Shown here: positions 7,821-23,958 of the stretch, piece by piece | How the letters are laid out: every line of letters starts with the position of its first letter | Numbering within the stretch: the first letter of the stretch is position 1 | Origin: Vulcanimicrobiota bacterium | Lineage (GTDB): Bacteria > Vulcanimicrobiota > JAJTBE01 | Direction of reading: 5' to 3' | NCBI GenBank assembly: GCA_021107945.1 | Contig: JAIORV010000108.1 | Span: forward strand, 1 to 40,441 | Length of the DNA stretch: 40,441 nt | Notes under the pieces: model-generated | Databases searched by the model: none | Told to the model about the DNA's origin: nothing | Seen by the model: only the letters and a program-made list of their open reading frames with translations | Made by a program: the position numbers and the translations under genes

Positions 7821-8209
7821 GTATCTATTCACCGCAAAGACCACAGAGTTTAGAATTTATAAAAAATCCACTTGATACCCTTTTAAGATTTTTAATATTA
7901 AAATTGATAATTTGTAAGCATTCAGTCCTCCCTTTTAGGAGTGGCATCTTGCCACGAAAAATTAGGCTGGAAGCCTCTCCTACAGTGACAGGTCTGAAAA
8001 AATACGATAATTTATCCCGATTTTGATCTCGACAATTTCAGAAAAGTCAGAAATTGTGCCTCGTAAATTGGTAAAATTTTGTCAAAGCCTTTAACATAAA
8101 AAATCATAAGATTCTCAACTATATTTTTCTTTGCGTTCTTTGCTTCTTTGCGGTTTTTTAAAATTCCTAATTATAGAATGACAAGTATTAAGGGAGGCTG
8201 AACAGTTAC
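7821..8209. mobile_element. MITE-like element 2 (outer, interrupted by element 3)
   Basis: Left end GTATCTATTCACCGC; inverted right end GTAACTGTTCAGCCT. The flanking 8-mers CCCAAAAA (7813-7820) and CCCAAGAA (8210-8217) match 7/8. Without the nested insertion and its duplication it would be about 289 bp. Its two ends carry 9-bp-period arrays in opposite orientation (CCGCAAAGACCACAGAG on the left; TTCTTTGCG/TTCTTTGCT/TCTTTGCGG at about 8128-8156), so it could form a long hairpin. Confidence 0.7.
7914..8005. mobile_element. MITE-like element 3, nested in element 2
   Basis: 92 bp. Left end GTAAGCATTCAGTCC, inverted right end GTATTTTTTCAGACC. Perfect 8-bp direct repeats GATAATTT lie at 7906-7913 and 8006-8013. 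The interior has the module AGGAGTGGCATCTTGCCACG and GGCTGGAAGCCTCTCCTAC. The perfect duplication suggests a younger insertion than the outer element. Confidence 0.8.
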
Positions 8210-8582: not shown

Positions 8583-10688
8583 TCAATAAGTCGCCCAGTA
8601 CAATTTTTCTACCTTTGAACTACTCAACGACTGTAATATTGAAAGGTATTTCGTGTCATAAGTGAATTTGGCTTCCCTGGCATTAATTGTAATATTGCCG
8701 GTTCCTTCGGTCAATGCGCCTCCGGGAATTCCGCCGTATGCCACCAGTCCTCCGACGAGCGTGAATTTATCATCAGGAATATTTACCAGGAAATTCTTGC
8801 ATGCAAATATCAATCCCTTGAATATTGAATCCTTGGGTTTGACTTCTTCACCCTCCGCGTCCACCATTTCCGGCGTTATGAATTTAATGTCACTAATCAC
8901 TGCTACTTGTACCTCATTATTATTCTTCTGAAATTCCCTGTATCCATCTCCAGGAAGTGTTGTGGCAAGTCCCACCTGCTCAAGCAGTTCCCATTTTTCA
9001 TCGGTGATAACTCCCAATGTCCATGAAGCCGGAGGCCCCGATAATTCATTAAAGGTTATTGTTTGTTCATCTGGATAGTTATCTTCAAGCCAATTCTGAA
9101 TACTTGTTAAAAATGCTATTTCGCCTGCGGTTAGTGGTTGTTCCGTTCCGACATCCTTTGGAACGTGCTCGATTGCATTGATATTAATGTCACCCATGGC
9201 GTAAAGGCTGATGCCGGTCTCTTCCGAGGCCGTGAATTTACTCTCGGCCATCATATACAGGTTTCCCTTTACAATCACGGTGCCGGTGCCCGACATACTG
9301 CCTTCTATTGCCACATTTCCATCCTCAATATTATTGACGAAATATACAGTATTCACCTCACCACTCTTATTGTCATAAGTGGAATTGAGCTCCACTTTCA
9401 GGTGTTCATCATCGGGACCTGTTATTAAAAGGTTTTTAAGAGGATCATGTTTAGGAATGAGTCCGTCAATATCTATAGATTCATTAATGGTTAATTTATT
9501 GGTCTTTTCATCCCACTTAACCTTTCCACTTTGAACAAGCGTCGTGAGGGAATCCGAGCCGTCATCAACAGCGGTGACTGTCCCGCTTTCCACATCCAAC
9601 TTACTATCTGAGGGATAATAAGTAACTTTTGGTAAATCCTTTTTTTCCCCGGGCTCAACCTTGTAATATCCCGCTTTTAATTCCCCGAAGGTCGATGTAT
9701 CAGGTACAATATGATCCCAGGTAAGCGCAGGGAATGCATTATCCTGTATCGTCTGATCACCCAGGAATGTGTCTTTATTTTTTTTAGGAGTGTTGTCAAA
9801 TGTAATTGAACCTGCCGCTCTTCCTCCTCCGTCGTCCTTTATATCCAGATAATCGGCAGATGAATGTCTCGTGTTTCCCAGAAAAATATTCTGATTGGCT
9901 CGAATAATGGGTGGCTTGCTTTTTTGGGCTGAATCAAGTTTGATTTTGCCTTTGATTTTATCTTTTTTGCCTTTGTCTCCGTTCACAGTTATGCTGACGT
10001 TTCCCCTTCCTATGGCCACGGAGTTGAGGTCCGCTCCGGCTCCCATTCGAACACAAACCTCAACGGTTCGATGCTGGCCGCCCATAGTTCCCCGGCAGAC
10101 CAGGAGTATCGAGTTATCAGGAACCGGTTTATAATTGGAGTCGTCGGAATACTTCGCCCAGGTTGAATAATCATCTTCCGCCAAGCCGGCGGGTGTAAAC
10201 TGGTTGTTCCGATTATTGCAAATGGCAATATTAGAAGGAACGGGCATCTTTGACAATTCCTGCTCCGTACCAAAAAAGGACATCTTCCCGGCTGCCGCAG
10301 CATCAGAGGGCTTCACAAAATATAACTCGAAGTAACCATTATTACCATCATTAATTTTACCTTCAATAGCACCCATGTTCCCGTTTATCTGGTGCTCAAG
10401 AACTTCAAGTTTCTTTCCGCTGTCAAGTGATAATGAATATGCACTTCCTATGCCGATATCAGGATCCCTTGTGCATCCGGTCCAGTATGGATCCTGGTTG
10501 AGTCTCATCATGGCATAATTAATCCCCGCCTCGGCGGCGGATGCGGCGGACTCCCTGTAATAGAAGTTCCCGGAGACCAGAGATTGCCGCCTTGTGGAAA
10601 CAATCATTGCTGCTGCAAGCATGACAAGGAAGCCTACAATCATGAGTGTTGTGACAAGAACAATTCCCCGACGTTTTGTTTTTGACAT
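8583..10688 (-). CDS. PilX-like type IV pilus minor pilin/assembly protein, large form
   Basis: 701-residue protein with one N-terminal membrane helix (RRGIVLVTTLMIVGFLVMLA) and the following ESAASAAEAGINYAM segment typical of the PilX N-terminal domain (PF14341). The prepilin Glu5 is absent, as is usual for PilX. The remainder is a long secreted region rich in Gly/Asn/Thr, probably beta-structured; I recognise no enzyme in it. An ATG at 10694 directly abuts the SD; GGAGG is 7 bases before the ATG at 10688, so I use the latter. Last gene of operon A (pilV-pilW-pilX order), with a hairpin terminator behind it and an extended -10 (TGTTATAAT, 10724-10729) just before it that may give separate transcription. 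Confidence 0.72.
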   Translation of the reverse strand: MSKTKRRGIVLVTTLMIVGFLVMLAAAMIVSTRRQSLVSGNFYYRESAASAAEAGINYAMMRLNQDPYWTGCTRDPDIGIGSAYSLSLDSGKKLEVLEHQINGNMGAIEGKINDGNNGYFELYFVKPSDAAAAGKMSFFGTEQELSKMPVPSNIAICNNRNNQFTPAGLAEDDYSTWAKYSDDSNYKPVPDNSILLVCRGTMGGQHRTVEVCVRMGAGADLNSVAIGRGNVSITVNGDKGKKDKIKGKIKLDSAQKSKPPIIRANQNIFLGNTRHSSADYLDIKDDGGGRAAGSITFDNTPKKNKDTFLGDQTIQDNAFPALTWDHIVPDTSTFGELKAGYYKVEPGEKKDLPKVTYYPSDSKLDVESGTVTAVDDGSDSLTTLVQSGKVKWDEKTNKLTINESIDIDGLIPKHDPLKNLLITGPDDEHLKVELNSTYDNKSGEVNTVYFVNNIEDGNVAIEGSMSGTGTVIVKGNLYMMAESKFTASEETGISLYAMGDININAIEHVPKDVGTEQPLTAGEIAFLTSIQNWLEDNYPDEQTITFNELSGPPASWTLGVITDEKWELLEQVGLATTLPGDGYREFQKNNNEVQVAVISDIKFITPEMVDAEGEEVKPKDSIFKGLIFACKNFLVNIPDDKFTLVGGLVAYGGIPGGALTEGTGNITINAREAKFTYDTKYLSILQSLSSSKVEKLYWATY

Positions 10689-10723
10689 ATTCATCCCTCC
10701 AGAAGAAACTATTTATCATCGTA

Positions 10724-10779: not shown

Positions 10780-11598
10780 TCATGGATTCTGAGGAATAAT
10801 CCTGTTGTCCACCTGGATTGTAAATTGACTTGCATCAAGATCATCACTCCCGACCTTGAGGAACTGGGTGGCTTCAAGCTCCTTTAAACACTTGATGTCA
10901 ACCAGAATCTCGGGATTGTCCGGTGGTGCCATTTTCGAAACATTGAAACTCAGAAGATTCTTCCCTACAATATAAACATTCTGTACATATTTTGAATCCG
11001 CGCCTTGGGCGCTCACGGCGGCGATATATTGATCCCTGGATACGGATTTTCCACTGAGACTTGCATGGGGAGGTATATACTCTTCTATTTCCACATCAGA
11101 AGGAATATCATCAGGCGGCAGACCGGGCCAGGGATCCCAGGAGCTAGCCCCGTCTGTTGTTCTTGTAAGATCCACTCGTAATAAAAATTTATGTGGACAT
11201 TTGTTATCAGTACCCAATATTGCAGAATGCGTACAGAGATCTTCAGTTGCCATGGGTCTTAAAAGAATATAAAGAATGTATCCATGAGTCAGGGGATTTC
11301 CCGTCGCATCGGTGTCGAACTTTCCCGTTATTGGATTTGTGAATGATTTAAAGCCCAGTGTATGCCTGTAATCATCGGTCCAGGTTACAACCGAAGCGTA
11401 TGAGGTTTTTTTTAACTCCCCGGAGAGGTTCGTTTCAATATTTCTGATTTCCGATTGAATAGAAGCCCGATCTTCAACACTTCGCCAGTTTTTTGTGGCA
11501 TATCTGATAATCGCAAAAAGACATATGACAAGAATGCTGAAAACAGCGCTTGCAATGAGAAGTTCGATTAAAGTTGTTCCTTTTTTTCTTTTATTCAT
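10780..11598 (-). CDS. PilW-like minor pilin (operon A)
   Basis: 272-residue prepilin-like protein. The leader MNKRKKG is followed by TTLIELLIASAVFSILVI: a type IV prepilin cleavage site (after Gly7), Glu at +5 and a hydrophobic N-terminal helix, as in PilW/GspJ-type minor pilins that prime pilus assembly. The C-terminal part is a variable periplasmic/extracellular domain. No Shine-Dalgarno precedes the ATG: the 81-bp mobile element at 11601-11681 ends 3 bases upstream, and the ATG itself lies in one copy of the target duplication. The stop of a 30-codon minicistron overlaps this ATG as ATGA, so translation may be coupled. Confidence 0.75.
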   Translation of the reverse strand: MNKRKKGTTLIELLIASAVFSILVICLFAIIRYATKNWRSVEDRASIQSEIRNIETNLSGELKKTSYASVVTWTDDYRHTLGFKSFTNPITGKFDTDATGNPLTHGYILYILLRPMATEDLCTHSAILGTDNKCPHKFLLRVDLTRTTDGASSWDPWPGLPPDDIPSDVEIEEYIPPHASLSGKSVSRDQYIAAVSAQGADSKYVQNVYIVGKNLLSFNVSKMAPPDNPEILVDIKCLKELEATQFLKVGSDDLDASQFTIQVDNRIIPQNP

Positions 11599-11687
11599 TT
11601 GTATCTATTCATCGTAAAAGCCACAGAATGATGGTTAATCCCAATTTCAAAACCGACAATTTCAGAGGACTGAACAATTGCATTCAT
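11595..11687 (-). other. 30-codon minicistron created by element insertion
   Basis: Starts at the ATG in the upstream copy of the target duplication (complement of ATTCATCT, 11682-11689), 8 bases after the pilV stop, crosses the whole element and ends with TGA overlapping the pilW ATG (ATGA). The peptide (MNAIVQSSEIVG...) is encoded by repeat DNA and is unlikely to have a function of its own; its likely role is to carry ribosomes to pilW. The upstream ATG would have been the pilW start before insertion. Confidence 0.5.
11601..11681. mobile_element. MITE-like element 4 between pilV and pilW
   Basis: 81 bp. Left end GTATCTATTCATCGT, inverted right end GCAATTGTTCAGTCC. The flanking 8-mers ATTCATTT (11593-11600) and ATTCATCT (11682-11689) match 7/8. 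The interior has the 9-bp array module TAAAAGCCACAGAA and CGACAATTTCAGAGG. Confidence 0.75.
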
Positions 11688-11695
11688 CTTTCCGA

Positions 11696-12160
11696 TCAAT
11701 TTGACGGAATTATGTTCATCGTATTTTGTGAATAAATTAACCTTGATATACTGACATTCAATTTTCCGTATCCTGACTTGAACTCCTTTTTCAGTGCCGT
11801 ATCCTGCCACCACCATACAACCACATCAATTTTTTTTAGGTTTCCGGTTCCCACATCCTGACAAGTTATTTCATATGTAAAAATGGTTTTATTAAGAGTT
11901 GTAGTTCCAGTAATTGGAGAGCCTACATTATCTACAAGATTTGTGGAAAGTCCACCGGACATCTCCTGCCTGTCATAAAGATACTCCGAGAGAGCCGACT
12001 CGGCGACAACGATTCCCGCCGTGAGATCGACACCTTTCTGAGAAGACTTGAACATGGAGAAGAAAACTCCTATAAAGAGAAGTAAAGCTGTTGCGATTAT
12101 TGATACGGCAATCATCAACTCAACAAGGGAAAATCCTTTTTCTTCAGGGGGTTTTTTCAC
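11696..12160 (-). CDS. PilV-like minor pilin (operon A)
   Basis: 154-residue prepilin-like protein. The leader MKKPPEEKG is followed by FSLVELMIAVSIIATALLLF: cleavage after Gly9, Phe+1 and Glu+5, the canonical class III signal for the prepilin peptidase PilD. The end (VVVWWWQD ... KLNVSISRLIYSQN) fits PilV/GspI-like pseudopilins. An in-frame TTG at 12178 exists but has no SD and would leave only a 15-base leader; the GTG at 12160 gives the usual short leader and has GGAG 12 bases before it. First gene of operon A, with its own promoter at 12200-12228 just after pdp. Confidence 0.75.
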   Translation of the reverse strand: MKKPPEEKGFSLVELMIAVSIIATALLLFIGVFFSMFKSSQKGVDLTAGIVVAESALSEYLYDRQEMSGGLSTNLVDNVGSPITGTTTLNKTIFTYEITCQDVGTGNLKKIDVVVWWWQDTALKKEFKSGYGKLNVSISRLIYSQNTMNIIPSN

Positions 12161-12199
12161 TTCGAATAATGACTCCAAATCTTTTTTTTACTTTCATTT

Positions 12200-22394: not shown

Positions 22395-22426
22395 GAAACG
22401 AAAGATGAATTGCGCAGTCCGAATCT

Positions 22427-22450
22427 GTAGGAGGGGTTTCCTAACCCCGA
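22427..22450. repeat. GTAGGAGGGGTTTCCTAACCCCGAT hairpin repeat
   Basis: Stem GGGGTT / AACCCC. The same unit recurs within the composite element at 23618-23958 (near 23711 and 23871). Confidence 0.65.
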
Positions 22451-22480
22451 TAAACGGATAATAGATAACGCAGATCAGAT

Positions 22481-23617: not shown

Positions 23618-23958
23618 ATCTGTATTCAGACCCATCCTGTAGGAGCAATACTCATAAATTAACGAATTTAACAAGTGTGTGATGCAGGTGTCAGCGTCGG
23701 GTTGTAATTGTAGGAGGGGTTTCCTAACCCCGATTTACGATGGTTTCCTGATTCCGATAACATCGTTCACCGTTGACCGCCGTTGTTCACCATGGTTTAA
23801 TATCGTTTAATATCGCCTTTAGGAAAAGGCTCCTACTCCTGACCTTAATTCAGTGGTATTACCTGTAGGAGGGGTTTCCCAACCCCGATTTCATGCCATT
23901 TACAGGCTGGTCGGGAGACCAGCCTCTACCCAAATAGTGGGGTGGTCTGAATAAATAC
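23618..23958. mobile_element. MITE-like element 7, composite with several hairpin modules
   Basis: Left end ATCTGTATTCAGACC, inverted right end GTATTTATTCAGACC. The flanking 8-mers CTATTTTC (23610-23617) and CTATTTTT (23959-23966) match 7/8; the second contains the stop codon of the next gene. The interior strings together GTAGGAGGGGTTTCCTAACCCCGAT twice, GCCTTTAGGAAAAGGCTCCTAC and GGCTGGTCGGGAGACCAGCC. With element 6 it fills the 23402-23958 gap, which has no gene. Confidence 0.75.

Follow-up and report, generated by a model that had tools for sequence, protein, structure and literature searches.

In the genome of a Vulcanimicrobiota bacterium, a short terminal-inverted-repeat element has inserted where two minor-pilin genes, pilV and pilW, adjoin, and the 8-bp duplication arising from the insertion took in the pilW start ATGAAT. 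With its start duplicated in this way, pilW has kept its whole coding sequence, though 89 bp away from the old position. The explanation that we consider best, and to which we give about even confidence, is the insertion of a MITE with duplication of the start codon, pilW now being served by a relay ORF that crosses the element. Features of the window, i.e. the whole stretch of DNA analysed (40,441 nucleotides, contig JAIORV010000108.1), are listed in Table 1.

Table 1. Features at and around the pilV-pilW junction (positions in the window)
Feature	Position	Strand	Basis or remark
pilV/GspI-like minor pilin or pseudopilin gene	11696..12178	-	PF07963; relatives; start uncertain
Target-site duplication, upstream copy	11682..11689	-	minus strand AGATGAAT; carries presumed original pilW start codon
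30-codon ORF, presumed old start through element	11595..11687	-	TGA overlaps pilW ATG (ATGA, -4 nt)
81-bp insertion, probable internally deleted IS66/ISBst12-type MITE	11601..11681	.	ends and 8-bp duplication match genome-wide family; alignment to longer copies
Right terminal inverted repeat	11668..11681	-	minus strand GCAATTGTTCAGTC; family GTAACTATTCAGCC; 4 transitions
Relic of 3' part of GxxExxY (PF13366/TIGR04256) gene	11629..11665	-	alignment; 89% to C91:13884-13920, 86% to C165:403-437, both within PF13366 matches
Left terminal inverted repeat GTATCTATTCATCG	11601..11614	+	family GTATCTATTCACCG
Target-site duplication, downstream copy	11593..11600	-	minus strand AAATGAAT; carries present pilW start codon
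pilW/GspJ-like minor pilin or pseudopilin gene, intact	10780..11598	-	PF07963
Next gene, weakly GspK-like	8583..10694	-	NF037980, E 6e-5, under curated cut-off

The pilV-pilW junction

The pilV-like and pilW-like genes and the gene after them resemble, at best weakly, the minor pseudopilins GspI, GspJ and GspK, and "pilV" and "pilW" are used here as labels of convenience. On the minus strand the pilV-like gene stops with TGA at 11698-11696, followed by 8 bases (TCGGAAAG) and then by the upstream 8-mer (ATGAATGC), exactly where the earlier note had placed it, and the pilW-like ORF begins in the downstream 8-mer with ATGAATAAAAG. Since the frame before this ATG is closed a few codons back by TAG and no other start codon lies ahead of the prepilin G-x-x-x-x-E motif, the present ATG is the only sensible start of pilW. 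The claims that the downstream copy starts pilW without a Shine-Dalgarno (SD) sequence and that the pilin gene was kept intact were borne out: the SD is absent from the 25 bases TGGCTTTTACGATGAATAGATACAA before the ATG, and the gene has retained both an unbroken frame of 272 codons and the prepilin motif. Most other gene starts in the window carry an SD, and the genome plainly uses such sequences. That the insertion "replaced" the SD of pilW, as the earlier note also held, is overstated, because the reconstructed old start had just GGAAAG abutting the ATG, a poor and badly spaced SD.

The gap between pilV and pilW is 97 nt here, and shrinks to 8 nt if the element and one of the 8-mers are left out of the count. 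The gene order pilV-pilW is a conserved feature of the phylum. At about 15 junctions of relatives, with the pilW starts inferred from the prepilin motif, the start of pilW either overlaps the pilV stop or lies 4, 4, 4, 4, 9, 11, 13, 14 or 19 nt downstream of it, a range that includes the reconstructed spacing; one relative (L098) showed no recognisable pilW-like gene beside the match. The tight junctions of the relatives, compared with the gap here with and without the element, thus support the reading of the upstream ATG as the old pilW start, and pilW was probably itself coupled to pilV before the insertion, as in the relatives. An empty site was not found among 58 genomes of the phylum and one genome per species of 84,980 species, the nearest pilV-like protein being about 50% identical.

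The insertion and its repeat family

The 81-bp insertion is flanked by ATTCATTT and ATTCATCT, identical at seven of eight positions, and ATGAAT is present on the minus strand in both 8-mers. Every sequence statement of the first description proved correct. The insertion belongs to a repeat family sampled from about 120 stretches of the genome, the consensus ends of which are GTAWCTATTCA...TGAAYAGWTAC with 8-bp target duplications. For the left-end repeat, 181 matches were found in the 5.56-Mb genome by allowing up to 3 mismatches in 20 bases, against none in the control. Exact flanking duplications were obtained only at length 8 when lengths from 3 to 12 were tested; the 8-bp duplication, with at most one mismatch, was present in 14 of the 26 candidates (some elements being counted on both strands), compared with 0.9 expected. 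The length of the elements, as estimated by end pairing in the genome stretches, ranges from about 70 to 590 bp, and the family is multicopy, non-coding and short, as MITEs are. The 81-bp copy was found unprompted by the search for ends plus duplication, and agrees with the family at 13 of 14 bases of the left end and 10 of 14 of the right. The chance that a right end this good, together with a duplication of at least 7/8, lies 60-700 bp from a given left end is about 0.002.

Because of the family ends, the exact 8-bp duplication throughout the family and the syntenic junctions of the relatives, which overlap or are at most 19 nt apart, the insertion and the duplication of the start codon, as originally proposed, are well supported. 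The exact deletion form of the 81-bp copy is single-copy in the genome. The element is old, as judged from changes at 4 of 14 end bases, at 1 of 8 duplication bases and in about 11% of the core. A scan for promoters within 11601-11681 gave no site above threshold.

IS66-family transposons generate 8-bp duplications and have ends beginning with GTAA. In the phylum relative G040, an IS66 transposase gene (NF033517) is bordered by GTAACCGTTCAGCCCA on one side and the inverse of it on the other, the duplication being 7/8, and the family end GTAACTATTCAGCC resembles GTAACCGTTCAGCC of this IS66 element (L130). The ends of ISDge4, a member of the ISBst12 group, are GTGACTACTCAGCA/GTAACTGCTCAGCA with an 8-bp repeat (PMC12898284). 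The 81-bp insertion is therefore best read as a MITE of the IS66/ISBst12 type. The genome itself, 98.6% complete, gave no PF03050 match and, in the homology search with the L130 transposase, nothing better than E 0.19, so the family elements look like stranded MITEs; the source of transposase may have been lost or may lie within the unassembled part of the genome. Stranded MITEs outlive their source, and a transposase in the same genome is usual, not essential.

In a wider sample the candidate end pairs with duplications numbered 47, some of which pair the ends of one element in different ways, and within this sample only the 81-bp copy has a plausible start codon in the duplication; the duplication of L032 holds TTG, probably not a real start. 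The remaining elements with duplications sit upstream of a gene start, many of them leaving the SD in between. This count led to rejection of the idea of ATGA relays as a habitual product of the family. Given that the family counts some 200 copies or more, a single duplication over a start codon would be unsurprising, the estimate being of the order of one per genome.

Family elements were often observed just upstream of genes (L034, L045, L053, L187, L190, L217 and others), with the duplication ending before an intact SD. Such positions would reflect a preference of the elements for A/T-rich leaders as targets, or else a survival bias. A second abundant subfamily consists of hairpin elements of about 90-92 bp (GTATTTATTCAGAC...GACTGAATGCTTAC, core GTGGCAAGATGCCAC); their 8-bp duplications are perfect, and a transposase of the same kind presumably mobilised them. 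The window also contains TGTAGGAGGGGTTTCCTAACCCCGAT, a further hairpin repeat of the genome, at 22417-22453, 23700-23736 and 23855-23891.

A GxxExxY gene relic within the element

The centre of the element matches other repeats of the genome (E 5e-7); it agrees at 86-89% with the 3' portion of GxxExxY genes and relics, one of these being the C165 gene, which was assigned to TIGR04256. A collinear alignment, interrupted by internal deletions, joins the 81-bp copy with the 3' end of that gene and with a 389-bp element of the same family at 7821-8209 in the window. The match of the centre and the collinear alignment mark the 81-bp copy as derived, by internal deletion, from an element that carried GxxExxY. 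The 389-bp element is bordered by the 8-bp duplication CCCAAAAA/CCCAAGAA and contains a GxxExxY gene relic (7994-8122, minus strand). Nested in it is a 92-bp hairpin of another subfamily (ends GTAAGCATTCAG...CTGAAAAAATAC, duplication GATAATTT), that is, an insertion within an insertion.

GxxExxY (PF13366/TIGR04256) genes or relics were found beside or within IS66-type end repeats at L110 (the C165 gene), at L113 and at 7994-8122 of the window, and an IS66-type end follows directly after the intact C165 gene. IS66-type elements may carry such genes along as cargo. At L111 and in the relatives L155 and L156, GxxExxY is flanked by repeats of other types, CACAGAG/CGCAGAG, and among GxxExxY genes of other members of the phylum several have short flanking repeats of their own, not the GTAACTATTCA ends. 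A literature search on the mobility of GxxExxY genes gave nothing relevant.

The 30-codon ORF

From the upstream ATG, a frame of 30 codons (MNAIVQSSEIVGFEIGINHHSVAFTMNRYK) crosses the element and ends in TGA overlapping the pilW ATG, just as the earlier note had described it. The ATGA ending is automatic: since pilW itself begins with ATGA, any frame that arrives in this phase is bound to terminate at that point, and only the phase and the openness are contingent. With the phase given, 19% of dinucleotide-shuffled elements were open, and 30% of all frames were open end to end in 22 real short elements of the family. As the phase is met in 1 of 3 cases, phase and openness together are expected by chance in about 6-10% of insertions. 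The open relay frame is not beyond chance, and therefore needs no explanation based on selection. The idea that the relay ORF is a remnant of the GxxExxY frame was rejected, the two frames being different.

Translation of pilW after the insertion

Since the spacing in the phylum relatives is tight, pilW before the insertion, located 8 nt past the pilV stop, would have been translated largely by ribosomes terminating on pilV, and the insertion would have broken this link. In E. coli, reinitiation or coupling is decreased by 80-100% at a distance of +38 nt; the overlaps seen most often, by a wide margin, are those of 4 and 1 nt (PMC10666635). Given this steep fall with distance, ribosomes would not be expected to pass directly from pilV to pilW across 97 nt. 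A relay with spacings of +8 nt and -4 nt would satisfy the distance rule: termination on pilV would be followed by initiation 8 nt further along, at the old ATG, by translation of the 30-codon ORF, and finally by ATGA coupling on the pilW start. Because pilW is without an SD, such coupling is plausible. We predict from the sequence, with the balance close to even, that the relay ORF is in use for pilW translation. Its start is predicted by the structure model to lie in a stem, and has only the poorly spaced GGAAAG, both of which count against the relay. If used, the relay would be a lucky by-product and no evolved device, the ATGA having existed beforehand and phase and openness being given by chance.

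A possible but less probable explanation is that the insertion took place as described and the minicistron is idle, pilW being initiated directly, without an SD, on an A/U-rich leader. The leader and the first codons are indeed A-rich, the mean unpaired probability around the pilW ATG is 0.54, near the top of the range for nine other starts (0.34-0.58), and the open frame is of the kind that chance provides; against it, the genome makes plain use of SD sequences and the model shows partial pairing of the pilW ATG. It is unlikely that the insertion damaged pilW expression and that the gene is on its way out: the lack of an SD, the long gap and the uncoupling from pilV would fit such decay, yet the frame and the prepilin motif have stayed intact beside an old element. 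That the 8-mers are no target duplication and resemble each other by chance, or through the end itself, in which a third ATTCATC is found (11608-11614 region; family consensus ATTCACC), is very improbable in view of their exact abutment on independently defined family ends, at the duplication length of the family itself, and of a chance of about 0.001-0.002.

The relay reading in its full form, that an IS66-type MITE made a three-cistron relay from a coupled pilin pair, with a host-started, element-encoded 30-codon ORF, and reached a MIRU-like outcome independently via duplication of the start codon, is proposed tentatively, at a little under even confidence.

Implications and comparison with known systems

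The junction is a clean example of how the target duplication of a transposon can spare a gene struck exactly at its first codon, and of a selection-free origin of a new small ORF between the genes of an operon. ATGA junctions need not be adaptive, as any gene starting with ATGA gives one if the insertion is open and in phase. Since its members often sit closely upstream of genes, the repeat family provides a ready-made set of cases in which insertions at translation start sites can be studied.

The likeness to the IS66 family, ISBst12 group (ISDge4, and L130 in G040), lies in the GTAACTRYTCAGC-like ends and the 8-bp target duplications, 7/8 in the 81-bp copy; the difference is that the 81-bp copy is without transposase, and none was detected in its genome either. 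With the GxxExxY/PDDEXK_3 genes (PF13366, TIGR04256), of which the genome has intact copies, the element shares a core that is a relic of their 3' part, whereas only about 37 bp of them are left and the relay ORF uses another frame.

The mycobacterial MIRUs are mobile repeats that insert at start codons and thereby bring an ORF of their own into coupling with the gene, at a spacing of -4 nt, which has been proposed to spare expression (2025 review, PMC12548453). A short mobile repeat at a start codon, with an ORF running through it to an ATGA at -4 nt, is likewise found here, as a likeness in working only and in the 81-bp copy only. The element family is different from the MIRUs, as judged by the ends and the core, both of which another family explains; among the candidate end pairs the event stands alone, with no habit of the family; and the ORF begins at a duplicated host start, which the 8-bp duplication by IS66-type ends explains. 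Coupling of pilW through the relay is a reasonable proposal with a known precedent, and the finding is tidy but modest.
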